Positions 1,785-44,399 of a stretch of 64,000 bases of DNA are shown here, one piece after another. Both the position numbers and the translations under genes were made by a program. Position 1 is the first letter of the stretch. Every line of letters begins with the position of its first letter. Origin of the DNA: Chondrosia reniformis (Eukaryota; Porifera; Demospongiae; Chondrillida; Chondrillidae); assembly GCA_947172415.1 (NCBI GenBank), contig OX359200.1, positions 5,086,501 through 5,150,500 on the forward strand. The letters are read 5' to 3'. The notes under the pieces are model-generated. The model saw nothing but the letters and a program-made list of their open reading frames with translations. It was not told where the DNA came from and did not search any database.

Positions 1785-4700
1785 ATTTATGTAAGGCGAG
1801 TCAAGCAAAATAAGAGGCGTTACCTTCAAGAAACGATTCCAATAAAATAGGCTGACGATCGTTACCTTCAATATGGTAGGAGTGACACTGTCGGCATTGT
1901 AGATGTAGTTCAGTTCTGACACTTAAATCTTATATGAAAATGTCAAATATTTTAAAAGTGCCGTCTTTGATTGTAATAATTTCCTTCTCTTTCTATTAAA
2001 TTATTCATATATTTATGAATATCTAGTTCAAATTCTTGAAGTTTATGACCAATTAAAATTCATATACGATACTTACTTTATTGATTGAGTTGTTTTCTTG
2101 TATCTTTCACTATCTCCTCAACTTATTCTACAAATGAATATTATGGATTAACAGGATGTGAGTATCTGCTTAATGTAGTAGTGTGCATCCATTTTGTTCC
2201 TGTGTGTGTTCCAAGTGAAGTCTATAATGATAATGACATGCAGACCATTAAATTGTATACAGAAATGTAACACTTTATTGTCATGAACATTGTTTGTATT
2301 GAGTGAGTTGTTTTCTTGTATCTTTCACTATCTCCTCAACTAATTCAACAAATGAATATTATGGATTAACAGCAAGTGAGTATCTGCTTAATGTAGTAGT
2401 GTGCATCCATTTTGTTCCTGTGTGTGTTCCAAGTGAAGTATAGAATGATAATAACATGTAGACGTTAAATTGTATACAGAAATGTAACACTTTATTGTCA
2501 TGAACATTGTTTGTATTGAGTGAGTTGTTTTCTTGTATCTTTCACTATCTCCTCAACTAATTCAACAAACGAATATTATGGATTAACAGTTTGTGAGTAT
2601 CTGCTTAATGTAGTAGTGTGCATCCATTTTGTTCCTGTGTGTGTTCCAAGTGAAGTGTAGAATGATAATGACATGTAGACCTTTAAATTGTATACAGAAA
2701 TGTAACACTTTATTGTCATGAACATTGTTTGTATTGACTGAGTTGTTTTCTTGTATCTTTCACTATCTCCTCAACTAATTTAACAAACGAATATTATGGA
2801 TTAACAGCTAGTGAGTATCTGCTTAATGTAGTAGTGTGCATCCATTTTGTTCCTGTGTGTGTTCCAAGTGAAGTGTATAATGATAATGACATGTAGACCA
2901 TTAAATTGTATACAGAAATGTAACACTTTAGTATTGACTGAGTTGTTTTCTTGTATCTTTCACTATCTCCTCAACTAATTCATCAAACGAATATTATGGA
3001 TTAACAGAAAGTGAGTATCTGCTTAATGTAGTAGTGTGCATCCATTTTGTTCCTGTGTGTGTTCCAAGTGAAGTGTATAATGATAATGACATGTAGACCA
3101 TTAAATTGTATACTGAAATGTAACACTTTTTTGTCATGAACATTGTTTGTATTGACTGAGTTGTTTTCTTGTATCTTTCACTATCTCCTCAACTAATTCA
3201 ACAAACGAATATTATGGATTAACAGGAAGTGAGTATCTGCTTAATGTAATAGTGTGCATCCATTTTGTTCCTGTGTGTGTTCCAAGTGAAGTGTATAATG
3301 ATAATGACATGTAGACCATTAAATTGTATACAGAAATGTAACACTTTATTGTCATGAACATTGTTTGTATTGACTGAGTTGTTTTCTTGTATCTTTCACT
3401 ATATCTCCTCAACTAATTTAACAAACGAATATTATGGATTAACAGCTAGTGAGTATCTGCTTAATGTAGTAGTGTGCATCCATTTTGTTCCTGTGTATGT
3501 TCCAAGTGAAGTGTAGAATGATAATGACATGTAGACCATTAAATTGTATACAGAAATGTAACACTTTAGTATTGACTGAGTTGTTTTCTTGTATCTTTCA
3601 CTATCTCCTCAACTAATTCAACAAATGAATATTATGGATTAACAGAATGTGAGTATCTGCTTAATGTAGTAGTGTGCATCCATTTTGTTCCTGTGTGTGT
3701 TCCAAGTGAAGTGTATAATGATAATGACATGTAGACCATTAAAATGTATACAGAAATGTAACACTTTATTGTCATGAACATTGTTTGTATTGACTGAGTT
3801 GTTTTCTTGTATCTTTCACTATATCTCCTCAACTAATTCAACAAACGAATATTATGGATTAACAGAGAGTGAGAATCTGCTTAATGTAGTAGTGTGCATC
3901 CATTTTGTTCCTGTGTGTGTTCCAAGTGAAGTATAGAATGATATGACATATAGACCATTAAATTGTATACAGAAATGTAATACTTTATTGTCATAAACAT
4001 TTTTTGTATTGACTGAGTTGTTTTCTTGTATCTTTCACTATCTCCTCAACTAATTCAACAAACGAATATTATGGATTAACAGGAAGTGAGTATCTGCTTA
4101 ATGTAGTGGTGTGCATCCATTTTATTCCTGTGTGTGTTCCAAGTGAAGTGTAGAATGATAATGACATGTAAACCATTAAATTGTATACAGAAATGTAACA
4201 CTTTATTGTCATGAACATTGTTTGTATTGACTGAGTTGTTTTCTTGTATCTTTCACTATCTCCTCAACTAATTCAACAAACGAATATTATGGATTAACAG
4301 GAAGTGAGTATCTGCTTAATGTAGTAGTGTGCATCCATTTTTTTCCTGTGTGTGTTCCAAGTGAAGTGTATAATGATAATGACATGTAGACCATTAAATT
4401 GTATACAGAAATGTAACACTTTCTTGTCATGAACATTGTTTGTATTGACTGAGTTGTTTTCTTGCATCTTTCACTATCTCCTCAACTAATTCAACAAACG
4501 AATATTATGGATTAACAGAGAGTGAGTATCTCCTTAATGTAGTAGTGTGCATCCATTTTGTTCCTGTGTGTGTTCCAAGTGAAGTATAGAATGATATGAC
4601 ATATAGACCATTAAATTGTATACAGAAATGTAATACTTTATTGTCATGAACATTTTTTGTATTGACTGAGTTGTTTTCTTGTATCTTTCACTATCTCCTC

Positions 4701-7700
4701 AACTAATTCAACAAATGAATATTATGGATTAACAGGAAGTGAGTATCTGCTTAATGTAGTAGTGTGCATCCATTTTGTTCCTGTGTGTGTTCCAAGTGAA
4801 GTGTTGAATAATAATGACATGTAGACCATTAAATTGTATACAGAAGTGTAACACTTTATTGTCATGAACATTGTTTGTATTGACTGAGTTGTTTTCTTGT
4901 ATCTTTCACTATCTCCTCAACTAATTCAACAAATGAATATTATGGATTAACAGAAAGTGAGTATCTGCTTAATGTAGTAGTGTGCATCCATTTTGTTCCT
5001 GTGTATGTTCCAAGTGAAGTGTAGAATGATAATGACATGCAGACCATTAAATTGTATACAGAAGTGTAACACTTTATTGTCATGAACATTGTTTGTATTG
5101 ACTGATTTGTTTTCTTGTATCTTTCACTATCTCCTCAACTAATTCAACAAATGAATATTATGGATTAACAGAAAGTGAGTATCTGCTTAATGTAGTAGTG
5201 TGCATCCATTTTGTTCCTGTGTGTGTTCCAAGTGAAGTGTATAATGATAATGACATGCAGACCATTAAATTGTATACAGAAGTGTAACACTTTATTGTCA
5301 TGAACATTTTTTGTATTGACTGAGTTGTTTTCTTGTATCTTTCACTATATCTCCTCAACTAATTTAACAAACGAATATTATGGATTAACAGGAAGTGAGT
5401 ATCTGCTTAATGTAGTAGTGTGCATCCATTTTGTTCCTGTGTGTGTTCCAAGTGAAGTATAGAATGATAATGACATGTAGACCATTAAATTGTATACAGA
5501 AGTGTAACACTTTATTGTCATGAACATTTTTTGTATTGACTGAGTTGTTTTCTTGTATCTTTCACTATCTCCTCAACTAATTCAACAAATGAATATTATG
5601 GATTAACAGAAAGTGAGTATCTGCTTAATGTAGTAGTGTGCATCCATTTTGTTCCTGTGTGTGGTCCAAGTGAAGTGTAGAATGATAATGACATGTAGAC
5701 CATTAAATTGTATACAGAAATGTAACACTTTATGGTCATGAACAGTGTTTGTATTGACTGAGTTGTTTTCTTTTTTCTTTCACTATATCCTCAACTAATT
5801 CAACAAATGAATATTATGGATTAACAGTTTGTGAGTATCTGCTTAATGTAGTAGAATGCATCCATTTTGTTCCTGTGTGTGTTCCAAGTGAAGTGTAGAA
5901 TGATAATGACATGTAGACCATTAAATTGTATACAGAAATGTAACATGAACATTGTTTGTATTGACTGAGTTGTTTTCTTGTATCTTTCACTATCTCCTCA
6001 ACTAATTCATCAAATGAATATTATGGATTAACAGCAAGTGAGTATCTGCTTAATGTAGTAGTGTGCATCCATTTTGTTCCTGTGTGTGTTCCAAGTGAAG
6101 TATAGAATGATAATGACATGCAGACTATCAAATTGTATACAGATATGTAACACTTTATTGTCATGAACATTCTTTGTATTGACTGAGTTGTTTTCTTTTA
6201 TCTTTCGCTATATCCTCAACTAATTCAACAAATGAATATTATGGATTAACAGCAAGTGAGTATCTGTTTAATGTAGTAGTGTGCATCCATTTTGTTCCTG
6301 TGTGTGTTCCAAGTGAAGTATAGAATGATAATGACATGTAGACCATTAAATTGTATACAGATATGTAACACTTTATAGTCATGAACATTTTTTGTATTGA
6401 CTGAGTTGTTTTCTTGTATCTTTCACTATCTCCTCAACTAATTCAACAAACGAATATTATGGATTAACAGAAAGTGAGTATCTGCTTAATGTAGTAGTGT
6501 GCATCCATTTTGTTCCTGTGTTTGTTTAAAGTGAAGTATAGAATGATAATGACATGTAGACCATTAAATTGTATACAGAAGTGTAACACTTTATTGGCAT
6601 GAACATTTTTTGTATTGACTGAGTTGTTTTCTTGTATCTTTCACTATCTCCTCAACTAATTCAACAAATGAATTTTATGGATTAACAGGCTGTGAGTATC
6701 TGCTTAATGTAGTAGTGTGCATCCATTTTGTTCCTGTGTGTATTCCAAGTGAAGTGTATGATGATAATGACATGTAGACCATTAAATTGTATACAGAAAT
6801 TTAACACTTTATTGTCATGAACATTGTTAGTATTGACTGAGTTGTTTTCTTGTATCTTTCACTATCTCCTCAACTAATTCAACAAATGAAAATTATGGAT
6901 TAACAGAAAGTGAGTGTCTGCTTAATGTAGTAGTGTGCATCCATTTTGTTCCTGTGTGTGTTCCAAGTGAAGTGTATAATGATAATGTCATGTAGACCAT
7001 TAAATTGTATACAGAAATGTAACACTTTATTGTCATGAACATTGTTTGTATTGACTGAGTTGTTTTCTTTTACGTATCTTTCACTATCTCCTCAACTAAT
7101 TCAACAAACGAATATTATGGATTAACAGGAAGTGAGTATCTGCTTAATGTAGTAGTGTGCATCCATTTTGTTCCTGTGTGTGTTCCAAGTGAAGTATCGA
7201 ATGATAATGACTTGTAGACCATTAAATTGTATACAGAAATGAAACACTTTATTGTCTTGAACATTTTTTGTATTGACTGAGTTGTTTTCTTGTATCTTTC
7301 ACTATCTCCTCAACTAATTCAACAAACGAATATTATGGATTAACAGAAAGTGAGTATCTTCTTAATGTAGTAGTGTGCATCCATTTTGTTCCTGTGTGTG
7401 TTCCAAGTGAAGTATAGAATGATAATGACATGTAGACCATTAAATTTTATACAGAAGTGTAACACTTTATTGTCATGAACATTTTTTGTATTGACTGAGT
7501 TGTTTTCTTGTATCTTTCACTATCTCCTCAACTAATTCAACAAATGAATATTATGGATTAACAGGAAGTGAGTATCTGCTTAATGTGATGTGTGCAACAA
7601 TTTTATTCCTGTGTGTGTTCCAAGTGAAGTGTATAATGATAATGACATGTAGACCTTTAAATTGTATACAGAAGTGTAACACTTTATTGTCATGAACATT

Positions 7701-10700
7701 GTTTGTATTGACTGAGTTGTTTTCTTGTATCTTTCACTATCTCCTCAACTAATTCAACAAACGAATATTATGGATTAACAGAGAGTGAGTATCTGCTTAA
7801 TGTAGTAGTGTGCATCCATTTTGTTCCTGTGTGTGTTCCAAGTGAAGTATAGAATGATAATGACATGTAGACCTTTAAATTGTATACCGAAATGTAACAC
7901 TTTATTGTCATGAACATTTTTTGTAATGACTGAGTTGTTTTCTTGTATCTTTCACTATCTCCTCAACTAATTCAACAAATGAATATTATGGATTAACAGC
8001 AAGTGAGTATCTGCTTAATGTAGTAGTGTGCATCCATTTTGTTCCTGTGTGTGTTCCAAGTGAAGTATAAAATGATAATAACATGTAGACGTTAAATTGT
8101 ATACAGAAATGTAACACTTTGTTGTCATGAACATTGTTTGTATTGGCTGAGTTGTTTTCTTGTATCTTTCACTATCTCCTCAACTAATTCAACAAACGAA
8201 TATTATGGATTAACAGAAAGTGAGTATCTGCTTAATGTAGTAGTGTGCATCCATTTTGTTCCTGTGTGTGTTCCAAGTGAAGTGTATAATGATAATGACA
8301 TGTAGACCATTAAATTGTATACTGAAATGTAACACTTTATTGTCGTGAACATTGTTTGTATTGACTGAGTTATTTTCTTGTATCTTTCACTATCTCCTCA
8401 ACTTATTCTACAAATGAATATTATGGATTAACAGGACCTGAGTATCTCCTTAATGTAGTTGTGTGCATCCATTTTGTTCCTCTGTGTGTTCCAAGTGAAG
8501 TGTAGAATGATAATGACATGTAGACCTTTAAATTGTATACAGAAATGTAACACTTTATTGTCATGAATATTTTTTGTATTGACTGAGTTGTTTTCTTGTA
8601 TCTTTCACTATCTCCTCAAATAATTCGACAAATGAATATTATGGATTAACAGGCAGTGAGTATCTGCTTAATGTACCTAGTAGTGTGCATCCATTTTGTT
8701 CCTGTGTGTGTTCCAAGTGAAGTGTAGAATGATAATGACAAGTAGACCATTAAATTGTATACAGAAGTGTATAACACTTTATTGTCATGAACATTTTTTG
8801 TATTGACTGAGTTGTTTTCTTGTATCTTTCACTATCTCCTCAACTAATTCAACAAATGAATATTATGGATTAACAGCCAGTGAGTATCTGCTTAATGTAA
8901 TAATGTTCATCCATTTTGTTCCTGTGTGTGTTCCAAGTGAAGTATAGAATGATAATGACATGTAGACCTTTAAATTGTATACAGAGATGAACGTAACACT
9001 TTATTGTCATGAACATTGTTTGTATTGACTGAGTTGTTTTCTTGTATCTTTCACTATCTCCTCAACTAATTCAACAAATGAATATTATGGATTAACAGGC
9101 TGTGAGTATCTGCTTAATGTAGTTGTGTGCATCCATTTTGTTCCTGTGTGTGTTCCAAGTGAAGTGTAGAATGATAATGACATGTAGACCATTAAATTGT
9201 ATACAGAGATGTAACACTTTATTGTCATGAACATTGTTTGTATTGACTGAGTTGTTTTCTTTTTTCTTTCACTATCTCCTCAACTAATTCAACAAACGAA
9301 TATTATGGATTAACAGAATGTGAGTATCTGCTTAATGTAGTAGTGTGCATCCATTTTGTTCCTGTGTGTGTTCCAAGTGAAGTGTAGAATGATAATGACA
9401 TGTAGACCATTAAATTGTATACAGAAATGTAACACTTTATTGTCATGAACATTTTTGTATTGACTGAGTTGTTTTCTTGTATCTTTCACTATCTCCTCAA
9501 CTAATACAACAAATGAATATTATGGATTAACAGTGGGTGAGTATCTGCTTAATGTAGTAGTGTGCATCCATTTTATTCCTGTGTGTGTTCCAAGTGAAGT
9601 GTATAATGATAATGACATGTAGACCATTAAATTGTATACAGAAATGTAACACTTTTTTGTCATGAACATTGTTTGTATTGACTAAGTTGTTTTCTTGTAT
9701 CTTTCACTATCTCCTCAACTAATTCAACAAACGAATCTTATGGATTAACAGCTAGTGAGTATCTGCTTAATGTAATAGTGTGCATCCATTTTGTTCCTGT
9801 GTATGTTCCAAGTGAAGTGTAGAATGATAATGACATGTAGACCATTAAATTCTATACAGAAATGTAACACTTAATTGTCATGAACATTTTTTGTATTGAC
9901 TGAGTTGTTTTCTTGTATCTTTCACTATCTCCTCAACTAATTCACCAAACGAATATTATGGATTAACAGGAAGTGAGTATCTGCTTAATGTAATAGTGTG
10001 CATCCATTTTGTTCCTGTGTATGTTCCAAGTGAAGTGTAGAATGATAATGACATGTAGACCATTAAATTGTATGCAGAAATGTAACACTTTATTGTCATG
10101 AACATTTTTTGTATTGACTGATTTGTTTTCTTGTATCTTTCACTATCTCCTCAACTAATTCAACAAACGAATATTATGGCTTAACAGAAAGTGAGTATCT
10201 GCTTAATGTAGTAGTGTGCATCCATTTTGTTCCTGTGTGTGTTCCAAGTGAAGTATAGAATGATGATAACTTGTAGGCCCTTAAATTGTATACAGAAATG
10301 TAACACTTTATTGTCATGAACATTTTTTGTATTGACTGAGTTGTTTTCTTGTATCTTTCACTATCTCCTCAACTAATTCAACAAACGAATATTATGGAAT
10401 AACAGAAAGTGAGTATCTGCTTAATGTAGTAGTGTGCCTCCATTTTGTTCCTGTGTGTGTTCCAAGTGAAGTGTAGATTGATAATGACATGTAGACCTTT
10501 AAATTGTATACAGAAATGTAACACTTTATTGTCATGAACATTGTTTGTATTGACTGATTTGTTTTCTTGTATCTTTCACTATCTCCTCAACTAATTCAAC
10601 AAATGAATATTATGGATTAACAGAAAGTGAGTATCTGATTAATGTAGTAGTGTGCATCCATTTTGTTCCTGTGTGTGTTCCAAGTGAAGTGTAGAATGAT

Positions 10701-12953
10701 AATGACATGTAGACCATTAAATTGTATACAGAAATGTAACACTTTATTGTCATGAACATTTTTTGTATTGACTGATTTGTTTTCTTGTATCTTTCACTAT
10801 CTCCTCAACTAAATCAACAAACGAATATTATGGATTAACAGGAAGTGAGTATCTGCTTAATGTAATAGTGTGCATCCATTTTGTTCCTGTGTATGTTCCA
10901 AGTGAAGTGTAGAATGATAATGACATGTAGACCATTAAATTGTATACAGAAATGTAACACTTTATTGTCATGAACATTTTTTGTATTGACTGATTTGTTT
11001 TCTTGTATCTTTCACTATCTCCTCAACTAATTCAACAAACGAATATTATGGCTTAACAGGAAGTGAGTATCTGCTTAATGTAATAGTGTGCATCCATTTT
11101 GTTCCTGTGTGTGTTCCAAGTGAAGTATAGAATGATAATGACATGTAGACCTTTGAATTGTATACAGAAATGTAACACTTTATTGTCATGAACATTTTTG
11201 TATTGACTGAGTTGTTTTCTTGTATCTTTCACTATCTCCTCAACTAAATCAACAAACGAATATTATGGATTAACAGGAAGTGAGTATCTGCTTAATGTAA
11301 TAGTGTGCATCCATTTTGTTCCTGTGTATGTTCCAAGTGAAGTGTAGAATGATAATGACATGTAGACCATTAAATTGTATACAGAAATGTAACACTTTAT
11401 TGTCATGAACATTTTTTGTATTGACTGATTTGTTTTCTTGTATCTTTCACTATCTCCTCAACTAATTCAACAAACGAATATTATGGCTTAACAGGAAGTG
11501 AGTATCTGCTTAATGTAGTAGTGTGCATCCATTTTGTTCCTGTGTGTGTTCCAAGTGAAGTATAGAATGATAATAACTTGTAGGCCCTTAAATTGTATAC
11601 AGAAATGTAACACTTTATTGTCATGAACATTTTTTGTATTGACTGAGTTGTTTTCTTGTATCTTTCACTATCTCCTCAACTAATTCAACAAACGAATATT
11701 ATGGAATAACAGAAAGTGAGTATCTGCTTAATGTAGTAGTGTGCATCCATTTTGTTCCTGTGTGTGTTCCAAGTGAAGTGTAGATTGATAATGACATGTA
11801 GACCTTTAAATTGTATACAGAAATGTAACACTTTATTGTCATGAACATTGTTTGTATTGACTGAGTTGTTTTCTTGTATCTTTCACTATCTCCTCAACTA
11901 ATTCAACAAATGAATATTATGGATTAACAGAAAGTGAGTATCTGATTAATGTAGTAGTGTGCATCCATTTTGTTCCTGTGTGTGTTCCAAGTGAAGTGTA
12001 GAATGATAATGACATGTAGACCATTAAATTGTATACAGAAATGTAACACTTTTTTGTCATAAACATTTTTTGTATTGACTGAGTTGTTTTCTTGTATCTT
12101 TCACTATCTCCTCAACTAATTCAACAAACGAATATTATGGATTAACAGAAAGTGAGTATATGCTTAATGTAGTAGTGTGCATCCATTTTGTTCCTGTGTG
12201 TGTACCAAGTGAAGTGTAGAATGATAATGACATGTAGACCATTAAATTGTATACAGAAATGTACCACTTTATTGTCGTGAACATTGTTTGTATTGACTGA
12301 GTTATTTTCTTGTATCTTTCACTATCTCCTCAACTAATTCAACAAACGAATATTATGGATTAACAGGAAGTGAGTATCTTCTTAATATAGTAGTGTGCAT
12401 CCACTTTGTTCCTTTGTGTGTTCCAAGTGAAGCGTAGAATGATAATGACATGTAGACCATTAAATTTTATACAGAAATGTAACACTTTATTGTCATGAAC
12501 ATTGTTTGTATTGACTGAGTTGTTTACTTGTATCTTTCACTATCTCCGCAACTAATTCAACAAACGAATATTATGGATTAACAGAGAGTGAGTATCTCCT
12601 TAATGTAGTAGTGTGCATCCATTTTGTTCCTGTGTGTGTTCCAAGTGAAGTGTACGGTACAACTCGTAAAAAAGTAAACTTTTTACGGGCGTAGGCCGCC
12701 CGTGCCGTCTACCGTCATAATTCCGTAGGACGCTTCCGCTACGCCCGTAGGTAAACCGTAGCAAGACCCGCACGTTTCACAATCTACGCCCGTACTTAAA
12801 ACTACGGGTATGTCAAACGCCTAGTTTGTTAATAAAAAAATATTTAACACCTACTTGTTGCACTTACGTTTTCGATCGAATCAAGGTGTTTTATAGTTGT
12901 TATTAATGTTTTCGTTCTATGTAACTTTTGTATTCACTACGCGCAAGTCAAAG

Positions 12954-13952
12954 ATGGTGTATTCAGAGTATTTGAAACAGAGGATTCTCTGTCATCGTCG
13001 TTTAGGGAAGAGCTATAGAGAAATCGTCAAATGCTTAGCAGCAGAAGGATACGTAACTACAAAAGGTGGCGTGTACAAGTTTGTAAAGCGATTCGAAGAA
13101 ACGGGAACTACCCTGCGAGCTCCAGGAAGCGGTAAAACCTCCAAGATTACGGCGGAAGCCAGGAAAATCGTTGAGGAACAGATGATACGTGACGATGAAA
13201 CTACCGGAAAGGAAATGCAGAAGGTACTAAGTGATAAAGGGATCGATATTGCCTCAAGTACTGCGATTAGGTGGAGAACAGAGTTAGGCTGGACTTCTAA
13301 AGGGACCAGTTATTGCCAAATGATAAGAGACCAAAACAAGGTAAAAAGACTTGAGTGGGCAAAGAACAATTTTGACATGACATTTGATGACGTCATCTAC
13401 ACTGATGAGACAACTGTGCAAATTGAAACTCATCGCCGAACGTGCTGCTACAAGAGAGGACAAAAGCCACGTTACAAGCCGAAGCCTAAACATCCCATCA
13501 AAGTTCATGTTTGGGCTGGGATAAGTCATCGTGGGAGAACAAATCTGTGTATATTTGAAGGAAAGATGAACGCTGAGCTATTTGTTTCCATTTTGGATAA
13601 GACTCTTCTTCCTTTCATCAGAGATGTATATCCTGATAGGCATAGATTTGTTCAGGATAATGACCCTAAACATTGCTCCAAATATGCAAGAAAATTTTAT
13701 GAAGACAATAACATCAATTGGTGGCCAACACCCCCAGAGTCACCGGATCTTAATCCAATTGAGTTGGTCTGGCATGAATTGAAGGAATTCATTCGACGAG
13801 AGACAAAGCCTAGGACCAAGCAGGAACTCATTGATGGTATTAGGGACTTTTGGGAAACAGTCACACCTATAAAGTGTCAGCGTTATATAAGACACCTGAA
13901 AAAGGTCATCCCAAAAGTGATTGAATGCAGTGGAAATGCAACTGGTTACTAA
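12954..13952 (+). CDS. DD34E transposase of element A (IS630/Tc1-mariner superfamily)
   Basis: 332 aa from the ATG at 12954; the frame is open upstream to another ATG at 12906. The N-terminal half has tandem helix-turn-helix character (KSYREIVKCL; then a region ending in the GRPR-like hinge APGSGKTSK). The DDE core shows the family landmarks: first Asp in YTDETT, HVWAGIS, second Asp in VQDNDPKH, and the Glu in SPDLNPIE. Exactly 34 residues separate the second Asp and the Glu. Length matches Tc1-like transposases (about 340 aa). It would bind the terminal repeats and cut and paste at TA. No frameshift or stop is seen. The 3' ends of this gene and the BEN gene face each other about 210 bp apart. 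Confidence 0.92.
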   Translation: MVYSEYLKQRILCHRRLGKSYREIVKCLAAEGYVTTKGGVYKFVKRFEETGTTLRAPGSGKTSKITAEARKIVEEQMIRDDETTGKEMQKVLSDKGIDIASSTAIRWRTELGWTSKGTSYCQMIRDQNKVKRLEWAKNNFDMTFDDVIYTDETTVQIETHRRTCCYKRGQKPRYKPKPKHPIKVHVWAGISHRGRTNLCIFEGKMNAELFVSILDKTLLPFIRDVYPDRHRFVQDNDPKHCSKYARKFYEDNNINWWPTPPESPDLNPIELVWHELKEFIRRETKPRTKQELIDGIRDFWETVTPIKCQRYIRHLKKVIPKVIECSGNATGY

Positions 13953-15563: not shown

Positions 15564-16227
15564 GTATAAGTGAGCTTGTCGACAATATCTTGATTCGCAA
15601 ATGTCACACCTTACAAGGCACCGAATTAAATAAGTTTGCGCCCGAAGTGTTAATCGTAAGGAACGTAGGTTCGTTTGCCTTTAGCTACCGTATTATTTTT
15701 TAAAAACGCCCGTAGCTGTATCCGTAGATGATCCGTAGCTAAATAGAGATACGCCCGTGCTACGCCCCACCCGTACGCCGTCCGTGTTAAGTTCTACGCC
15801 CGTCGAAAGTTTACTTTTTTACGAGATGTACCATAGAATGATAATGACATGTAGACCATTAAATTGTATACAGAAATGTAACACTTTATTGTCATGATCG
15901 AACATTTTTTGTATTGTATTGACCTAGTTGTTTTCTTGTATCTTTCACTATCTCCTCAACTAATTCAACAAATGAATATTATGGATTAACAGGCTGTGAG
16001 TATCTGCTTAATGTAGTAGTGTGCATCCATTTTGTTCCTGTGTGTGTTCCAAGTGAAGTGTATAATGAGATAGACATGTAGACCATTAAATTGTATACAG
16101 AAGTGTAACACTTTATTGTCATGAACATTTTTTGTATTGACTGAGTTGTTTTCTTGTATCTCACTATCTCCTCAACTAATTCAACAAACGAATATTATGG
16201 ATTAACAGAAAGTGAGTATCTGCTTAA

Positions 16228-16847
16228 CCCTTTATGCGCGAGTGACGCATATTTGCATCAATTAATTAGGTATCTTCAATAGCGAGAGACGCATATTTGC
16301 GTCAAAGATACCATGGACGTTTTGTAGTAAGATTTACAGAGCTACATAACACTGCTGCAGCCGAAATGTTGGCGATACAAAGACTAAAGACGGTGGTTTA
16401 TTTGTGCGCCTTATTCTGCTTGCCACGCTTCACTTGACGGTTTGGTAAACAATTTGTTTGAGGCTACGACGCTTCTCCAATGTTCTAGGGCTTTGAAAAG
16501 ACTACATAAAGATATATCGTTACAAAAGGATAACCAGGGCTCTTCCTGACCGAATTTGCTTCCGTAGATAGTCAGAGAAAGCTTCTTACCCGAAGGAACT
16601 TAGAAAACATAGCCGTGCTTACCTTCTTCACTAAAAGAGGTAATATCTCGAAAATTAGAGCATCTTAGAAGCCAATAGAGCAACAAAATATGGCTAAAAA
16701 TCGGCATCAAAGTTTTACCGTCATAAAGAGTTGCCACATTCCTATCGAGGTGACGAATTTTAATTCCTGCCTCATGGTGTCCTCGTGACAATTAAATATC
16801 GCTTCTGGTGATTATTACGCCCACGTAATTATCTCGCGCATAAAGGG
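16228..16847. mobile_element. piggyBac-type MITE, copy 1 (620 bp)
   Basis: The element begins CCCTTTATGCGCGAG and ends with its inverse. It is flanked on both sides by TTAA (16224-16227, 16848-16851). Neighbouring array units show the empty site CTGC-TTAA-TGTAG, so the TTAA duplication is proven by comparison. TTAA target plus CC(C/T)-initiated ends is the piggyBac signature. Copies 2 and 3 (28855-29474 and 36490-37109) are also exactly 620 bp and nearly identical but in the opposite orientation. A 63-codon open frame starting MSRGHHEAG is conserved in all three; I do not recognise it as transposase. Confidence 0.9.
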
Positions 16848-17138
16848 TTAATGTAGTAGTGTGAATCCAATTTGTTCCTGTGTGTGTTCCAAGTGAAGTA
16901 TAGAATGATAATGACATGTAGACCTTTAAATTGTATATAGAAATGTAACACTTTATTGTCATGAACATTTTTTGTATTGACTGAGTTGTTTTCTTGTATC
17001 TTTCACTATCTCCTCAACTAATTCAACAAATGAATATTATGGATTAACAGGAAGTGAGTATCTTCTTAATGTGGTAGTGTGCATCAATTTTATTCCTGTG
17101 TGTGTTCCAAGTGTAGTGTAGAATGATAATGACATGTA

Positions 17139-17629
17139 CGGTACCTTTCAATAAAAATTGGCCGTTCTACGCCCGTATCCGTACCCGTTTTTTATTCACA
17201 GACACACTTACGAACCCGTACGAAACCCGTCCATAACCCGTATATCAAAATGGACGAAACCCGTTCGCCAACCCGTACCCGTAGGTATCTTTCCAGTTTG
17301 TTATTATAAAAGATACCACAGGGCTGTGATAGTTTTTATAGTTTATGTGGGGAATTTTAATGTTCGAAGCAAAGCACACACAGCCGCGAATCATATTAGC
17401 TAGTAAATTACCGCCTTTTCGGAATGTTATGTTAGCAATAATAACAGTCAAATATTTTCGCCTCCTACCACGTAAACTTACGGGTTTGATCCGTCCGTAC
17501 TAAACCCGTTGTCTTAAGGCCATAAGGCGTTCGAAATCCGTTTGTTTCCCGTATTAGCTCCCCGTATTAAACCCGTCCGTACACCCGTATGTAACCCGTA
17601 AAACGGCTAGTTTTTAGTGACAGGTACCG
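17139..17629. mobile_element. TA-inserting MITE related to elements A/B (491 bp)
   Basis: It starts CGGTACCTTTCAATAAAAAT and ends ...GACAGGTACCG, flanked by TA (17137-17138 and 17630-17631). The empty site GACATG-TA-GACC is present in other array units. The ends share the CGGTAC terminus with element A. The interior is filled with ACCCGT/ACGGGT repeats like A's subterminal DNA. It has no coding capacity, so it is probably mobilised in trans by an A-like transposase. Confidence 0.85.
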
Positions 17630-18589
17630 TAGACCTTTAAATTGTATACAGATATGTAACACTTTATTGTCCTGAACATGGTTTATATTGACTGAGTTGT
17701 TTTCTTGTATCTTTCACTATCTCCTCAACTAATTCAACAAACGAATATTATGGATTAACAGGAAGTGAGTATCTGCTTAATGTAGTAGTGTGCATCCATT
17801 TTGTTCCTGTGTGTGTTCCAAGTGAAGTGTAGAATGATAATGACATGTAAACCTTTAAATTGTATACAGAAATGTAACACTTTATTGTCATGAACATTTT
17901 TTGTATTGACTGAGTTGTTTTCTTGTATCTTTCACTATCTCCTCAACTAATTCAACAAATGAATATTATGGATTAACAGAATGTGAGTATCTGCTTAATG
18001 TAGTAGTGTGCATCCATTTTATTCCTGTGTGTGTTCCAAGTGAAGTGTAGAATGATAATGACATGTATAGACCATTAAATTGTATACAGAAATGTACAGT
18101 ACATGTCAGAAGTTCCTTACGGAATTCCGCAGATTGCCCGATACGGAATTCCGTACTTTTCCGAGGTACAAGGTTTGAGAGTCTGCGGATTGACTGAGGG
18201 TAGCCGCGGAACGTTCCGCAACGTTCCCCGACATTCCGCAGGAGGTTCGAAAAGGATTCGGCTGAGTATCGGTAATCACCGCATACGTTCGTGGATAGTA
18301 TACTTACGATTACGGGCCTTTACGGTGGTCACAGGAAAGGTCAAGTATTGTTTGTTTTGATAATGTTTTGTTAAACAAACAGTGTTTATTTAATGGTACA
18401 AAATGCCCACGTAACTGAATAAATTACGAAGTGATAAATTATAAGGCATCAGCCGCGGAACGTTCCGTAGGAGGCTTGAAAAGGATTCAAACACAATCCG
18501 TATACATGTATTACATTTTTTTTATATACGTAAAGTGTACACGAAAGAATAAAATCCTAAAATACGTACGTATAAGGAAAAGATAAAAG

Positions 18590-20838
18590 TTATTGAAGAA
18601 TGTTCTCACGATCGACAATCTTCGTCTTCCTGCACACCTCGTCTATAGCTTGCCGCATCTCCCTCTCCGTTGTATGATCAGTTTCTAGCCGCTGCAATGG
18701 ATAATATTTCATTGCTGTTGCATAGATAGCCTTTACTTTGGACCGATTTAATTGCTTTTTCCCAAGCACCCCTCGGCAATTGCTGCTAGCTCTCTCTTGA
18801 GGGTTGAATAGTCGAGATACTAACCTTGCTGCAAAATTCCTTCTGGATTTGCACCCTTCCAGAGCGAATGTTAAGTTATCCTGGGGAATGACAAAGCTAG
18901 ACTCATCCTCAGACTGAACGTACGTATTTAAGCAGTTTTCCACAGGAGAAAGAACTGAATTTTCACTGACAGCTACACTTTGCGGCCAGAAATTTAAAGG
19001 CATCTGAAAGGATCCTGGTGTAGGCATCGGCGAAGAAGTTGGCGTAGGCATTTACATCTGGTGTTCAGGTTGCGCATTTAGGAATGCTTCAGGTGGTAGA
19101 GTGCCCTTCTTTAGGTCCTCCTGCATAACCTCAAGTTTCTCTTCAACTGCGTCCAAGCGGCACAACATTTGGGCTTCGATACGTGATATTGTATCAGACA
19201 GCTTCTCCATTTTCTCACTAAGCGCTGATAGCATTTCTCCTAGCTGCTGGTCAGGTGGCTGGCTAACTTGAGAAGGCTGAGTATTCTGGGCATGTTCTGG
19301 GCTATTCATTACCATCGCTGCTGAAGCCAATTCAAACTGAAAGTCGGCATCGTCAGCGCTTGTGCCTCTACCTTGATGGGGGACTTCAGGTGATATGGTC
19401 TCGTTGACGTCCACAACTTTGGCTTTGTGCGTTTTCTTCGCTTTACCCCAAGAAACTAGTACCTCTCTACCGGCAGCAATCGTTCCTTGCTTCACTGCCG
19501 TCTTCTTCGCATGTGGAACATGTCCACGAATTTCTGATTTTTGTAATCGTCTTATTATCGCCTACAGAAGTGTCACATTCCAGGCGGAAGTGTCTTTAGC
19601 ATGTGACCTGCGCGTGAAGCGGAGCACCCAGCACTGAAACGTCACCATTCATCACTAGTCGTTATAGATGTTAAATTATAGTATAGCGTAGGAAGGCCAA
19701 CGACGGAGGAAGGCCCATAAAGGCCTACGTGACCGAAACGTTTTATTTTCCTTTTGATTATACTATGTTAATATTAAAAAAGAAGAATAGAACGTTTCGG
19801 TCACGTAGGCCTTAATTCGTCATTATACTACGTTAATATTCAAAAGAAGAATAGAACGTTTCGGTTATGGCGGCCTTAATTCCTCAGCAATTATTATTAG
19901 CTGAGGAATTAAGGCCTACGTGACCAAAACGTTCTATTCTTTTTCTTTTGATTATGCTTCGTTAATTGCTCATACATTTTCGCCATTGATATTTACATAG
20001 ATTTTAGTAGACATGTAATATGCTTACTGTTTCCACTTACCTCCTACGACAACAAAAACTTTGATCAAGGAAACTGTATCGCTACCGAGAAGCCTTACTT
20101 CTAATGGTTGTATAACGCGTTACCAAATATTTGGGTGCATATGCAACGTCATAAAACGTCATTGTATGATGGCTAAGCTATACTACTAATTGTGGCTGAT
20201 AATCACGTGACAATACCATTATTCGAAGGAGAAGAGACAAATGGAAAATAAACGGATTATTAGACAGTGGAGGATTGTAAATCTAACTATTTTTTGACAT
20301 CAATCTCTTCAGTAAGTAACAGCCGAAAAGTTGTATGTATACTCCTGGAATATTCCCTTGTTTAACCGAGATATGAAGTACTAGAGGTACCCGAAAAAGC
20401 TACGAAAATATGTTTTCGATTATAATTCATGAACTAAAGGGAATTTAAAAGGAGTATACATACAATTGTTAGATATCATTGTCCTTCATAGATTGGTGTC
20501 ACCATTTATTCTGTATTCGTATTTTCCACTGTCTAATAAAACATTTTTGGTGATATCGCACCTCTCACTTACGGCCGCTTAACTTCTCCTTTAAGCCTGT
20601 AAGCCTGTAATTGTGACGCTCTTGTAGCCAAAATATTAAGAAAGAATAGCGCTTCAATTCTATATAAATTGTTTAACAATACGATGTTTCTACCGTCAAA
20701 TAGAATAAACTAAAAAAGAGTGTTAGTTAGCGACTTTTACTGAAATTCCTGGAAGTGTGGACATGTTCCACTAGCGTTTACTAAGGAAGTTGTTCCCTTA
20801 GATCTTCCTTCACTCCACATGACAAGAATCTTATCCAT
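18590..20838 (-). pseudogene. BEN-domain gene of element B, split by an insertion and a stop codon
   Basis: The ATG at 20838 starts MDKILVMWSEG and runs to the border of the nested 1.27-kb element near 20777. The same frame resumes at about 19507 (KKTAVKQ) on its other side, so removing the insert restores one reading frame. The N-terminal module (VLVSWGKAKKTHKAKV) matches the one in the element A protein. A coiled-coil stretch follows (LSEKMEKLSDTISRIEAQM). A single in-frame TAA lies at 19052-19054, and the last 153 codons continue in the same frame with a BEN domain (FAARLVSRLF, GVLGKKQLN, ending AIDEVCRKTK). The architecture equals that of the element A partner although the DNA is unrelated at sight. 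The ancestral protein was about 320 aa. Confidence 0.78.
19508..20776. mobile_element. Non-autonomous 1.27-kb element nested in the BEN gene, copy 1
   Basis: The ends are inverted repeats CGC(AT/TA)GTGGAACATGTCCAC. A near-full second copy lies at 60802-62091. The interior holds repeated inverted blocks of GACCGAAACGTTCTATTC and AAGGCCTACGTGACC, and no transposase. Insertion into the BEN reading frame is shown by the frame continuing on both sides. The target duplication is 2 bp at most and ambiguous, so the superfamily is not assigned. Confidence 0.75.
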
Positions 20839-20985
20839 CTTTGAGTTGATATATTATTATACAAGTTGAAATACGATGATGATTCGTTTAATTTTAGCAA
20901 TTTATATTATACGCTCGTATGTGCTATAGGTGACGGATAATTCTACTAATATTTAAGCCAATCAGAAGCGCATATAGAATTAACT

Positions 20986-21080
20986 TTCTACACTATGGTC
21001 CGTCAGAAGGTGCGAGATAATTTCGCTAATAAATTCACCAATCAGATATACGGACAGATCCGACGGACCACAGTGTAGAA
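20986..21080. mobile_element. 95-bp mini inverted-repeat element
   Basis: TTCTACACTATGGTCCGTC at the left is matched by GACGGACCACAGTGTAGAA at the right (one mismatch) around a 57-bp core. It lies in the gap between the divergent BEN and transposase genes of element B. It could be a MITE or a structural promoter feature of the element; a second copy would decide. Confidence 0.55.
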
Positions 21081-21184
21081 TAATATTGCCTTGATTGGTT
21101 GAAATCTACACATAAATTTATCCTTTATATTGCTATATAAACATCAACATATAGCTTATAATTCATCTACTTGGATTTTTTAAA

Positions 21185-22209
21185 ATGCCTTTCAATGATT
21201 ACCAGCGTATGCGAATTGTTGCTTTATGGACTGAATGTGATGGAAAATTGTCATGGTCAAAAATGGAGAGGACCCTTTCTCAGGAAGGAATAATCACTAC
21301 TCGCCAGACTATTAAAAACACCATCAACAGATGGCTGAAAACTGGCTCAGTTATAGACATGCCCAGAACTGGAGCCCCAAAGAAAGTACCACTAACCCAT
21401 TATCGATGTATTGATGAAGCTATGTCAACAAATGATGAATTGACTGCCACAGATTTAAAGGATATCCTCACAAAAAAATTTGGGGAAGAGAAGGCCAAGT
21501 ACAGTACAAGAACCATTGCTAGGATTCGCAATGACCTTGGATGGACATTTTCAACAGCAAGGTATTGCCAAGCAATTCGGGATGCAAATAAAGAAAAAAA
21601 ATGGTCTGGTGTAAGAAGTGCATGGATGACGAGGAAACCTTTGATGATGTCATCTTCACAGATGAATCTACTTTTCAGTTGGAGTGTCACCGAAGAAAAT
21701 GCTTCAGGAAGAAAAAGACACCAAGGAAGCTTAAATACAGACACAAGCACCCTCCAAAAGTTCATGTCTGGGCTGGAATTTCCAAAAAAGGTGCAACCCA
21801 GATCGTCATGTTTAGTGGCATCATGAATGCAACAAGATATGGTGACATTCTCTCAGCCTCTCTTGTACCATTTATCCGAGAGAAATACCCGCGTAGACAC
21901 AGACTCTTCCAGGATAATGATCCCAAGCATACCAGCAGATACATTCGAAGTTTTTTTGAGTTAAACAATATTAATTGGTGGAAGAGTCCAGCTGAGAGCC
22001 CAGATCTCAATCCTATTGAATTGATATGGGGTTCTATGAAGACGTTTTTGAGAGACAAGCACAAACCAAGAACCTTGCCAGAATTAAAGGAAGGGATTAA
22101 ATTTTATTGGAGTAAGCTCACCCCTGAAATTTGTGAAAGATACATTGAGCATCTCCAAAAGGTTATGCCTATTGTCATAGAAGAGGAAGGCCGGCCATCA
22201 GGGCATTGA
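21185..22209 (+). pseudogene. DD34E transposase of element B, one-base frameshift
   Basis: ATG at 21185. Helix-turn-helix half: WSKMERTLSQEG, TRQTIKNTINRW, hinge PRTGAPKK. The frame breaks in an A8 run near 21597; one more A would restore WCKKCMDDEETFDDV. Downstream the core is intact: IFTDEST (first Asp), HVWAGIS, FQDNDPKH (second Asp), SPDLNPIE (Glu), with 34 residues between the last two acidic residues. Ancestral length is about 340 aa. A homopolymer sequencing error cannot be excluded. Related to but clearly distinct from the element A transposase. Confidence 0.88.
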
Positions 22210-25200
22210 AAATAGTTAGTTGTGTTGTATTTCTTAAACTTGTAAACATGATGATGCCTTATAATTTATCACTTTGTAATTTATTCAGTTACGTGGGCAT
22301 TTTTGTACCATTTATATTATATATTAAACATTATCAAAACAAATAATACTTGACCTTTCCTGCGACCACTGTAAAGGCCCGTAATCGTAAGTATACTATA
22401 CTCGAACGTATGCGGTGATTACCGATACTCAGCCGTACCTATACGCACTAATAAAACGTATTAAACCATGGATAAAGTCATAATGATATCGTCTTGAGAA
22501 TTATGGCAAGATCAGGAGAATTCGAAGTCCCGCAGGTTCCTCGGGTTCCTCGGATTCGTCTCAGAGTTCCGCACGTTCCGCATGATCCTCGGATTCGTCT
22601 GATTAAGTTCCGAAAGCCTGCCTCAGATTTCCAAAATCGTACCTCGGTTTTCCGAAATCGTGCCTCGGTTTTCCGCAATCTTGCCTCGGTTTTCCGAGCG
22701 GACACTCAAGGAATTCCGCAACGGATTTCCGTGGATTTCTGCGGAATTCCGTAAGGAACTTGTGACATGTACCGTAACACTTAATTGTCATGAACATTGT
22801 TTGTATTGACTGAGTTGTTTTCTTTTATCTTTCACTATCTCCTCAACTAATTCAATAAATGAATATTATGGATTAACAGGCCGTGAGTATCTGCTTAATG
22901 TAATAGTGTGCATCCATTTTGTTCCTGTGTATGTTCCAAGTGAAGTGTAGAATGATAATAACTTGTAGGCCATTAAATTATATACAGAAATTTAACACTT
23001 TATTGTCCTGAACATTTTTTGTATTGACTGAGTTGTTTTCTTGTATCTTTCACTATCTCCTCAACTAATTCAACAAACAAATATTATGGATTAACAGAAA
23101 GTGAGTATCTGCTTAATGTAGTAGTGTGCATCCATTTTGTTCCATTGTGTGTTCCAAGTGAAGTATAGAATGATAATAACTTGTAGGCCCTTAAATTGTA
23201 TACAAAAATGTAACACTTTATTGTCATGAACATTTTTTGTATTGACTGAGTTGTTTTCTTGTATCTTTCACTATCTCCTCAACTAATTCAACAAATGAAT
23301 ATTATGGATTAACAGAGAGTGAGTATCTGCTTAATGTAGTAGTGTGCATCCATTTTGTTCCTATGTGTGTTCCAAGTGAAGTGTATAATGATAATGACAT
23401 GTAGACCATTAAATTGTATACAGAAATGTAACACTTTATTGTCATGAACATTGTTTGTATTGACTGAGTTGTTTTCTTGTATCTTTCACTATCTCCTCAA
23501 CTAATTCAACAAATGAATATTATGGATTAACAGGAAGTGAGTATCTTCTTAATGTAGTAGTGTGCATCAATTTTATTCCTGTGTGTGTTCCAAGTGTAGT
23601 GTAGAATGATAATGACATGTAGACCTTTAAATTGTATACAGATATGTAACACTTTATTGTCATGAACATTGTTTGTATTGACGGAGTTGTTTTCTTGTAT
23701 CTTTCACTATCTCCTCAACTAATTCAATAAATGAATATTATGGATTAACAGGCTGTGAGTATCTGCTTAATGTAATAGTGTGCATCCATTTTGTTCCTGT
23801 GTATGTTCCAAGTGAAGTGTAGAATGATAATGACATGTAGACCATTAAATTGTATACAGAAATGTAACACTTTATTGTCATGAACATTTATTGTATTGAC
23901 TGAGTTGTTTTCTTGTATCTTTCACTATCTCCTCAACTAATTCAATAAACGAATATTATGGATTAACAGAAAGTGAGTATCTGCTTAATGTAGTAGTGTA
24001 CATCCATTTTGTTCCTGTGTGTGTTCCAAGTGAAGTGTAGAATGATAATGACATGTAGACCATTAAATTGTATACAGAAATGTAACACTTTATTGTCATG
24101 AACATTTTTGTATTGACTGAGTTGTTTTCTTGTATCTTTTACTATCTCCTCAACTAATTCAACAAATGAATATTATGGATTAACAGGCTGTGAGTATCTG
24201 CTTAATGTAGTAGTGTGCATCCATTTTGTTCCTGTGTGTGTTCCAAGTGAAGTATAGAATGATTATAACTTGTAGGCCCTTAAATTGTATACAGAAATGT
24301 TACACTTTATTTTCATGAACATTTTTTGTATTGACTGAGTTGTTTTCTTGTATCTTTCACTATCTCCTCAACTAATTCAACAAACGAATATTATTGTATA
24401 ACAGAAAGTGAGTATCTGCTTAATGTAGTAGTGTGCATCCATTTTGTTTCTGTGTGTGTTCCAAGTGAAGTGTAGAATGATAATGACATGTAGACCATTA
24501 AATTGTATACAGAAATGTAACACTTTATTGTCATGAACATTGTTTGTATTGACTGAGTTGTTTTCTTGTATCTTTCACTATCTCCTCAACTAATTCAACA
24601 AATGAATATTATGGATTAACAGGAAGTGAGTATCTGATTAATGTAGTAGTGTGCATCCATTTTGTTCCTGTGTGTGTTCCAAGTGAAGTATAGAATGATA
24701 ATGACATGTAGACCATTAAATTGTATACAGAAATGTAACACTTTATTGTAATAAACATTTTTTGTATTGACTGAGTTGTTTTCTTGTATCTTTCACTATC
24801 TCCTCAACTAATTCAACAAACGAATATTATGGATTAACAGGAAGTGAGTATCTGCTTAATGTAGTAATGTGCATCCATTTTGTTCCTATGTGTGTTCCAA
24901 GTGAAGTATAGAATGATAATGACATGTAGACCTTTAAATTGTATACAGAAATGTAACACTTTATTGTCATGCACATTGTTTGTATTGACTGAGTTGTTTT
25001 CTTGTATCTTTCACTATCTCCTCAACTAATTCAACAAATGAATATTATGGATTAACAGGCTGTGAGTATCTGCTTAATGTAGTAGTGTGCATCCATTTTG
25101 TTCCTGTGTGTGTTCCAAGTGAAGTGTAGAATGATAATGACATGTAGACCATTAAATTGTATACAGAAATGTAACACTTTATTGTCATGAACATTGTTTG

Positions 25201-27411
25201 TATTGACTGAGTTGTTTTCTTGTATCTTTCACTATCTCCTCAACTAATTCAATAAACGAATATTATGGATTAACAGAAAGTGAGTATCTGCTTAATGTAG
25301 TAGTGTACATCCATTTTGTTCCTGTGTGTGTTCCAAGTGAAGTGTAGAATGATAATGACATGTAGACCATTAAATTGTATACAGAAATGTAACACTTTAT
25401 TGTCATGAACATTTTTGTATTGACTGAGTTGTTTTCTTGTATCTTTCACTATCTCCTCAACTAATTCAACAAATGAATATTATGGATTAACAGGCTGTGA
25501 GTATCTGCTTAATGTAGTAGTGTGCATCCATTTTGTTCCTGTGTGTGTTCCAAGTGAAGTATAGAATGATTATAACTTGTAGGCCCTTAAATTGTATACA
25601 GAAATGTTACACTTTATTTTCATGAACATTTTTTGTATTGACTGAGTTGTTTTCTTGTATCTTTCACTATCTCCTCAACTAATTCAACAAACGAATATTA
25701 TTGTAAAACAGAAAGTGAGTATCTGCCTAATGTAGTAGTGTGCATCCATTTTGTTTCTGTGTGTGTTCCAAGTGAAGTGTAGAATGATAATGACATGTAG
25801 ACCATTAAATTGTATACAGAAATGTAACACTTTATTGTCATGAACATTGTTTGTATTGACTGAGTTGTTTTCTTGTATCTTTCACTATCTCCTCAACTAA
25901 TTCAACAAATGAATATTATGGATTAACAGGAAGTGAGTATCTGATTAATGTAGTAGTGTGCATCCATTTTGTTCCTGTGTGTGTTCCAAGTGAAGTATAG
26001 AATGATAATGACATGTAGACCATTAAATTGTATACAGAAATGTAACACTTTATTGTCATGAACATTTTTTGTATTGACTGAGTTGTTTTCTTGTATCTTT
26101 CACTATCTCCTCAACTAATTCAACAAACGAATATTATGGATTAACAGGAAGTGAGTATCTGCTTAATGTAGTAATGTGCATCCATTTTGTTCCTATGTGT
26201 GTTCCAAGTGAAGTATAGAATGATAATGACATGTAGACCTTTAAATTGTATACAGAAATGTAACACTTTATTGTCATGAACATTGTTTGTATTGACTGAG
26301 TTGTTTTCTTGTATCTTTCACTATCTCCTCAACTAATTCAACAAATGAATATTATGGATTAACAGGCTGTGAGTATCTGCTTAATGTAGTAGTGTGCATC
26401 CATTTTGTTCCTGTGTGTGTTCCAAGTGAAGTGTAGAATGATAATGACATGTAGACCATTAAATTGTATACAGAAATGTAACACTTTATTGTCATGAACA
26501 TTGTTTGTATTGACTGAGTTGTTTTCTTGTATCTTTCACTATCTCCTCAACTAATTCAACAAACGAATATTATGGATTAACAGAGAGTGAGTATCTGCTT
26601 AATGTAGTAGTGTGCATCAATTTTGGTCCTGTGTGTGTTCCAAGTGAAGTATAGAATGATAATGACATGTAGACCTTTAAATTGTATACAGAAATGTAAC
26701 ACTTTATTGTCATGAACATTTTTTGTATTGACTGAGTTGTTTTCTTGTATCTTTCACTATCTCCTCAACTAATTCAACAAATGAATATTATGGATTAACA
26801 GGAAGTGAGTATCTGATTAATGTAGTAGTGTGCATCCATTTTGTGCCTGTGTGTGTTCCAAGTGAAGTATAGAATGATAATGACATGTAGACCATTAAAT
26901 TGTATACAGTTATGTAACACTTTATTGTAATGAACATTTTTTGTATTGACTGAGTTGTTTTCTTGTATCTTTCACTATCTCCTCAACTAATTCAACAAAT
27001 GAATATTATGGATTAACAGGAAGTGAGTATCTTCTTAATCTAGTAGTGTGCATCAATTTTATTCCTCTGTGTGTTCCAAGTGTAGTGTAGAATGATAATG
27101 ACATGTAGACCATTAAATTGTATACAGAAATGTAACACTTTATTGTCATGAACATTTTTTGTATTGACTGAGTTGTTTTCTTGTATCTTTCACTATCTCC
27201 TCAACTAATTCAACAAACGAATATTATGGATTACCAGATTGTGAGTATCTTCTTATTGTAGTAGCGTGCATGTTATATGTATGGACTAAAATATAGGAAA
27301 GAGATTTATCACTTAAAAAAAGCAAAGACTGTCATTCCATACCTCCACTTAAAGAACCTTTGTATTCTCATCCCATGCATGTTATGTATATATATATGGA
27401 CTTACATATAG

Positions 27412-32476: not shown

Positions 32477-32541
32477 GATGTCGGCTCTTCCTACCACTGC
32501 GAAGCAGAATTCGCCAAATGTCGGATTGTTCACCCGCCAAT

Positions 32542-32593
<52 letters not shown>

Positions 32594-44387: not shown

Positions 44388-44399
44388 TATATATATATA

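Follow-up and report, generated by a model that had tools for sequence, protein, structure and literature searches.

The 64,000-nucleotide stretch of Chondrosia reniformis DNA analyzed here (hereafter the window) covers positions 5086501-5150500 of chromosome 12 and carries, on its forward strand, an array of 75 repeat units in which an acceptor-like and a donor-like sequence flank three variable bases. On its 5' side lies an exon whose last codon is the start codon, and on its 3' side a series of coiled-coil exons. Judging from the genomic sequence, we consider it probable, at roughly 85%, that each variable triplet is a 3-nucleotide (nt) phase-0 spliceosomal exon and that the codons are joined in genomic order into the N-terminus of a coiled-coil protein family. 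The data are genomic DNA from one individual of one species. The features of the window gene are listed below, with letters denoting paralogous arrays on the same chromosome (W being that of the window).

1873-1875, + strand: start codon, as the last codon of exon 1; donor GTAGGAGT starts at 1876 (boundary ...TTACCTTCAATATG/GTAGGAGT conserved in 7 aligned paralogues)
2086-27271, + strand: 75-unit array, ~218 bp per unit, with a predicted 3-nt exon between AACAG and GTGAGT in every unit (profile search, extraction)
2155-27240, + strand: 75 candidate single-codon exons reading DQFLKELNREEREKKEKFQQKAKEKERQKDAPANWLEKKKEEEEKKKERAKEENAKREAKAKEEAKAKEEAREEI, the first GAT at 2155 and the last ATT at 27238
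8435-8437, + strand: unit with a lost donor (GAC/CTGAG), predicted to be skipped (extraction)
12656-15827, no strand assigned: insertion in an array intron, with a transposase-type open reading frame (ORF) at 12897-13952 (+) and other ORFs (repeat unit broken, ORFs)
16228-16845, no strand assigned: short insertion in an array intron
17140-17613, no strand assigned: short insertion in an array intron
18098-22768, no strand assigned: insertion within an array intron, carrying another transposase-type frame, split into ORFs 21155-21826 and 21592-22209 (+)
27412-27495, + strand: first 84-nt coiled-coil exon, RRDVSPEKSNGSLSRNVSQLSTELKAVK (phase 0, AG/GT borders; homologues after arrays B and D)
27782-27865, + strand: second 84-nt coiled-coil exon, ETLQSLEESNPSLSDNVSELSKVLKAVK (phase 0, AG/GT borders)
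28150-28233, + strand: third 84-nt coiled-coil exon (phase 0, AG/GT borders)
28513-28596, + strand: fourth 84-nt coiled-coil exon (phase 0, AG/GT borders)
28764-28817, + strand: exon DGMRNVSENATKKKKDEQ (AG/GT borders; relative after array G)
30258-30275, + strand: possible terminal exon, EKLKK and stop (AG acceptor, stop; no copy found in the other arrays)
47907-47978, + strand: alternative terminal exon, EELYEARRQLKEIQQSDAQREKI and stop (relatives downstream of A, F and G, with a common 3' untranslated region (UTR))

The units of the window were located by a profile search, with the profile built on the first 49 repeats, and those that carry the site fall into 49 contiguous units (2086-12700), 5 between insertions (15926-18097) and a further 21 (22810-27271). 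An earlier note on this DNA had reported three bases between AACAG and GTGAGT in 75 units, and extraction bore this out: exactly three bases separate acceptor and donor in 75/75, CAG stands immediately 5' of the triplet in 75/75 (as AACAG apart from one ACCAG-type variant), and GT immediately 3' in 74/75. The 15 distinct triplets and the absence of stop triplets given in that note were likewise recovered. Its peptide composition was right for K (20), A (10) and Q (4), but E numbers 22 rather than 28; R occurs 6 times. The repeat, which it had put at ~217 bp, is indeed a homogenized tandem unit, but the period is mostly 218 bp, with indels that fall elsewhere in the unit and a spacing between neighbours of mostly 200-224 bp. 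Acceptors and donors are nearly identical across the array, as are the introns among themselves, each about 70 times the length of an exon. Multi-unit duplications have moved codons together with intron markers, for example at 23752-26366, where a run of units reading A K A K E E is repeated. Four insertions, at about 12.66-15.83, 16.23-16.85, 17.14-17.61 and 18.10-22.77 kb, break the array, each within an intron; the ORF at 12897-13952 we take, from reading its protein and without a family search, to be Tc1-like. Two other identities for the array were rejected. Zero-nt recursive splice sites do not fit the three bases between AG and GT in all 75 window units, and a known non-coding RNA repeat does not fit the lack of a match between the array and any Rfam family at the gathering threshold; an Rfam scan at this threshold and a tRNA scan of the window returned only a fragment of large subunit (LSU) ribosomal RNA.

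The gene family around the array

The genome searched comprises 117,379,552 bases in 15 contigs, from an assembly (GCA_947172415.1) described as 14 chromosomes plus the mitochondrial sequence, 117.37 Mb (PMC12181767). The sequenced specimen also has a public RNA-seq run (ERR10177766, given in that paper), and the alternate haplotype carries the accession GCA_947172445.1. Beyond the window, 200 kb of chromosome 12 (4840001-5040000) and a 5.2-kb fragment of a further array (J) were analyzed, giving a total of 322 codon-bearing units across the paralogous arrays, window included. About nine paralogues, the window gene among them, lie in tandem on chromosome 12, all on the + strand, with 29 units in array A, 8 in B, a lone unit, 15 in C, 14 in D, 49 in E, 32 in F, 54 in G, 18 in H, 3 in I, 24 in the J fragment and 75 in W. 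Since no exon-1 copy precedes D, F or I, the arrays C/D, E/F and H/I are probably pairs split by insertions, and counting them as such gives the figure of about nine genes; read in this way, E and F are probably one gene of 81 codons, including one TAA. The site pattern TTAACAGNNNGTRAGTATCTG occurs genome-wide at 321 places on the forward strand, 0 on the reverse and 0 in a reversed control, and 257 of the 321 places fall within the sequence read. Among the matches listed, all of these places are on chromosome 12, and intron sequence and site pattern together are confined to 4.86-5.11 Mb.

At all seven array starts aligned (A, B, C, E, G, H and W), a conserved upstream stretch ends in TTACCTTCAATATG/GTAGGAGT. 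The end of exon 1 reads ...CTTCAATATG, and the exon, ending ATG/GTAGGAGT, sits some 280-420 nt 5' of the first codon read. Relatives of exon 1 in the genome number nine copies, all on chromosome 12, and the exact motif TTCAATATGGTAGGAGT is found in eight exon-1 copies (seven in the 200 kb plus that of the window). A divergent neighbouring open frame, which by reading begins MAEAECESEEARLTDLLMSAARIG..., starts at 1284 on the minus strand of the window, and similar sequence lies upstream of several paralogues; the stretch up to 1873 may thus contain a two-way promoter.

Downstream, 84-nt phase-0 coiled-coil exons follow arrays B, D, G (where 20 of the 28 residues are left) and W, with AG/GT borders wherever these were checked. 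Genes B, C/D and H/I continue into a Death-domain exon, while A, F, G and W end instead in a terminal exon that starts with EEL and has a shared 3' UTR. A Death-domain exon (Pfam PF00531) was looked for across the window, and none was found for the window gene. Whether this gene is intact is uncertain, given one lost donor and two candidate terminal exons. The four chromosome 12 Death-domain exons compared are all open, and a comparison of nonsynonymous and synonymous rates (dN/dS) over Death-domain and 84-nt exons, in which changes are few and dN exceeds dS in several pairs, gave no clear signal.

Some further observations concern these downstream exons. A 368-bp tandem repeat of 3.7 copies at 27423-28767 carries the 84-nt coiled-coil exons of the window, so that a second exon type has likewise been multiplied in tandem. 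Near the cluster, Death-domain exons not tied to an array lie at 5015276 and 5046703. Death-domain-like matches in the genome number 113 at E <= 0.001, mainly at 1.88-3.10 Mb of contig C2, where a cluster is 39-48% identical.

What varies and what is held constant in the repeat

Among the 218 columns of the window units, the three triplet columns rank 1, 2 and 7 by entropy, and in the 322-unit set they rank 1, 2 and 4 by diversity. The earlier note had called them the only multi-state hypervariable columns, which goes a little too far, as columns 141, 163 and 208 of the 322-unit profile are also multi-state. A parsimony tree was computed from the flanking sequence of 274 near-complete units. 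On it, the codon columns changed 103, 90 and 68 times (ranks 1, 2 and 3), while the other 215 columns averaged 3.7 changes and reached 23 at most; a triplet column thus changes 18-28 times as often as an average flank column. This tree serves as a yardstick only, since exchange between repeats violates the assumptions of a tree, a caution also stated for Prdm9 (PMC3890296). The codon differs in 14 of 26 unit pairs with identical 215-nt flanks, and 55 units that share the same 40 bases on each side carry 11 different codons.

This variability is bounded in what it produces. The 3-nt spacing is exact in 321/322 units and 321/322 codons are sense, both as aligned; a single stop was observed where column frequencies predict 13.0 (or 10.3 when base frequencies are taken per array), and a single codon ending in AG, compared to 14.9 expected. 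An AG-ending codon would offer a second acceptor and thereby delete the codon. When the units were reduced to 263 distinct haplotypes, stops and AG-ending codons still numbered one each, with 11.0 and 11.4 expected, and 0 of 10000 shuffles reached either value. Constraint extends upstream of the site: in columns 7-68 (62 columns, from the pyrimidine tract to the acceptor), 2 new AGs were found where 21.7 were expected from the region's own substitution spectrum, and substitutions per site were 0.018 in the acceptor region compared to 0.037 in the intron body. No deletion touches columns 60-78 of the 322-unit profile; the per-column gap count (mean 12) takes in partial units at array ends and carries no weight. 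The earlier note had named frequent stops and length changes at the site as the mark of a neutral repeat, whereas these 322 paralogous units, which are not a population sample, hold one stop and one insertion at the site. The joint depletion of stops, AG-ending codons and new AGs is the pattern expected of acceptors in use and of codons that are translated.

The arrays also differ in what they would encode. The predicted peptide of W is rich in E, K and A, those of E, F and J are rich in Q, and those of C and D are acidic with F, P and S; for A, E, F, G, J and W, the difference in residue class between arrays exceeded that in each of 5000 shuffles. In contrast, mean intron divergence within arrays (0.033-0.051) is about the same as that between arrays (0.036-0.049), and for 83 of the 274 near-complete units, the closest relatives by intron lie exclusively in another array. 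With residue class specific to the array and intron divergence not, introns are shared between genes, while codons are gene-specific. Homogenized repeats in which the codons escape homogenization are what concerted evolution of the Prdm9 type presents.

The intronless relative on chromosome 13

An open frame of 358 codons at 6440971-6442044 of chromosome 13 (771-1844 of the stretch L051) consists, in order, of exon-1 sequence up to the ATG, 57 codons, a homologue of the 84-nt exon, coiled-coil exons and a Death domain. It diverges from the chromosome 12 exon-1 region right after the ATG, and compared by eye with paralogues B and D, introns are precisely absent from it at seven post-array positions. 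An intronless, precisely joined copy is the product expected of a reverse-transcribed spliced messenger RNA (mRNA), and we therefore read it as a fossil cDNA. Its homology to the parental 3' UTR stops near position 2009 of L051.

Residues 2-58 of the predicted protein returned only a weak, low-complexity match on the minus strand near 4921400 (E 0.12 or worse) among the chromosome 12 stretches read, and in the chromosome 12 genes only the array occupies their position. The codon bias of the 57-codon string resembles that of the arrays, although the resemblance is inflated by a repeated 8-codon block. Codons ending in C are absent from the string (0/57) but make up 44/300 of the rest (p 6e-4), with GAG at 0/14 compared to 13/39 and GAC at 0/16 compared to 8/25; the arrays, too, are nearly free of these codons.

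The Death domain of this protein scores 24.6 bits against Pfam PF00531 (cut-off 22.6, E 2.8e-5). Sequence matches in the PDB are weak and of Death-domain and FADD type (best E 0.026), NCBIfam gave one weak SMC match, and a protein database search returned only the protein itself. The database record of this identical protein refers to a contig of 7,076,433 bases, unlike the chromosome 13 sequence used here, and perhaps belongs to another assembly version. A single-sequence AlphaFold model is mostly helical, with a predicted local distance difference test (pLDDT) score of about 41-67 over the Death-domain part.

Reading the array as exons

Based on the position of the array between the start-codon exon and the phase-0 exons, the signatures of selection and the 57-codon chromosome 13 copy, a chain of one-residue exons, as the earlier note had proposed, is the best reading. 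The sites carry AG, three bases and GT behind a constrained acceptor region, in frame between coding exons, and they would thus qualify as 3-nt micro-exons. Exon 1 would end exactly at the ATG and be followed by 75 single-codon exons spliced in genomic order; the product would be M, then one residue per exon, then the in-frame coiled-coil exons and, in some paralogues, a Death domain, and the 57 codons of the chromosome 13 copy would derive from such micro-exons. Because an acceptor and a donor separated by 3 nt cannot be bound by their factors simultaneously, introns of ~215 nt would leave one at a time by intron definition. Every step would use the donor 3 nt beyond the last junction, in a recursive-like manner, and the ladder of recursive splice sites that the earlier note offered as an alternative is a possible mechanism yielding the same product. 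Unequal exchange and conversion would homogenize the introns, while selection would keep the codons different, as at the contact codons of Prdm9 zinc fingers.

Several observations weigh against this interpretation. In the window, one unit lacks a donor (GAC/CTGAG, triplet at 8435); in array F, one unit is TAA; and in array H, the unit at 5022337, tabulated as CAA, has a 4-base insertion at the site that can be read as CTG plus a duplicated donor. Tested for heptad periodicity, 6 of the 7 peptide strings from the arrays gave a negative result (p 0.02 for C+D), which lends a coiled coil in this part of the protein no general support. The units are related by duplication, which weakens exact probabilities, and the deficit of AG-ending codons could in part reflect codon preference. 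For the chromosome 13 copy, neither a poly(A) tail nor a target-site duplication was recognized by eye in L051, and the string contains CAG (7) and TAT (7), both at 0 in the 322 array units, which implies that the parent array differed or that the chromosome 13 N-terminus had another origin.

It is also possible, though doubtful, that the exons are real but only partially included, with micro-exons skipped singly or in runs, randomly or under regulation, and at the extreme one or a few codons per mRNA, resulting in many N-termini per gene. The frame survives the skipping of any whole codon, the near-identical acceptors and donors make pairings across the array look equivalent, and single units tolerate a lost donor or a stop; however, the intronless copy holds 57 consecutive codons, and the scarcity of AG-ending codons (1 compared to 14.9) suggests that codon loss by acceptor shift is selected against. 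An improbable account of origin, under which present splicing would be the same, holds that an ordinary N-terminal exon was divided into codons as a single, introner-like mobile intron inserted again and again. Introners reportedly provide many near-identical introns, and here, too, near-identical introns separate different codons, while the intronless copy carries the whole stretch as one block. Against this origin, the sponge introns and their site pattern occur, among the matches listed, in a single cluster of genes on chromosome 12, and a unit takes its codon along when it is duplicated, as the A K A K E E duplications at 23752-26366 illustrate; this origin would moreover demand insertion precisely after every codon, always in phase 0, and the narrow codon set is unlike that of an ordinary exon.

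The stop in F, the lost donor in W, the several-kb insertions and the Death-domain exon not found in the window would all suit arrays that once worked, with the chromosome 12 genes, including that of the window, now in decay and replaced by the chromosome 13 copy or another exon. We regard such decay as very improbable, given that 321/322 codons are sense as aligned, that the acceptor region has diverged at 0.018 compared to 0.037 in the intron body, and that the four compared chromosome 12 Death-domain exons are open. We find it scarcely credible that the array is instead a neutral satellite within intron 1 whose likeness to splice sites is incidental. The array does share with typical satellites its tandem repetition with indels, its transposon insertions and its higher-order duplications, but hypervariability is confined to three columns, stops, AG-ending codons and new upstream AGs are all depleted, the array is strand-specific in nine genes, and the codon string recurs in an intronless copy.

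If the one-residue exons are translated as proposed, the product would be a fast-evolving N-terminal domain of a coiled-coil/Death-domain family, and the Death domain in some members together with the fast change suggests a possible role in immunity or self-recognition. We tentatively raise the further idea, which we hold to be rather unlikely, of a codon-per-exon diversity system, whose variable N-terminus would consist of interchangeable single-codon cassettes that can be duplicated, deleted, exchanged from gene to gene or skipped in splicing, always in frame. Such a system would let a recognition sequence be edited residue by residue in evolution, and perhaps within one animal too.

Several known systems bear comparison with the array. 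Schistosoma micro-exon genes, in which the coding sequence is said to consist largely of very short exons of 3-81 bp, are taken to vary by splicing; they resemble the sponge genes in having many short in-frame exons (75 of 3 nt, four of 84 nt and short end exons in the window gene), but their exon sizes are mixed, whereas the sponge exons are one codon each and the sponge family adds a Death domain and a coiled coil. RPS24 reportedly has a run of three micro-exons, likewise consecutive, but three rather than dozens and, by description, not a tandem repeat. Isolated 3-nt micro-exons are documented in Drosophila homothorax (hth, exon 8), Drosophila troponin T and rodent NCAM (PMC7392893, PMC8042270), and that of hth obeys a CAG-exon-GTGAGT/GTAAGT border rule (PMC7392893). 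The sponge array shares with all three the in-frame 3-nt exon, and with hth the border rule; but each of those genes, as described there, has one isolated micro-exon, while the sponge has tens in tandem, with near-identical introns and hypervariable codons. At ratchet points, the acceptor abuts the donor (AG/GT) and nothing is left in the mRNA (PMC8605326). The sponge case is similar in that a donor would be regenerated after each step, but its sites lie three bases apart and these bases would stay as a codon. The nearest evolutionary analogue is the Prdm9 zinc-finger minisatellite, in which contact-position codons escape homogenization (PMC3890296): both are homogenized tandem repeats from which selected codons escape, but the Prdm9 repeats lie within one exon, whereas in the sponge the homogenized part would be intron and the selected codon a whole exon.

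In the literature on 3-nt or one-codon exons, tandem micro-exons, sponges and Death-domain genes, no such array was found, most subscription papers lying outside this coverage. Isolated 3-nt exons are already known; what would be new is a stretch of protein encoded entirely by tens of such exons. It would represent a new way of building protein, one amino acid per exon, and would probe how short an exon can be and still be recognized, and what maintains order and fidelity among equivalent splice sites. It would also show codon-by-codon protein evolution with the frame always safe, and would allow homogenization (of introns) and selection (on codons) to be separated within one repeat. Exons of 3 nt probably escape standard gene prediction and read alignment, and further cases may therefore be hidden.

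The remaining observations concern other parts of the window. Short tandem repeats also occur at 44397-44841 (91 bp), 58922-59262 (31 bp) and 62092-62411 (35 bp), and the splice-site pattern was noticed in none of them. A small gene of secreted type (MGRVTFLLAGVIALVAVSS..., containing WWTGY repeats) is present twice, at 31314-31900 and 52558-53004, both copies possibly within the last intron of the array gene. The LSU ribosomal RNA fragment returned by the Rfam scan, at 32477-32581, is eukaryotic (RF02543, 138.5 bits) and out of place. Finally, an open frame of 915 amino acids with CxxC pairs, at 41159-43906, possibly encodes a mobile element protein.

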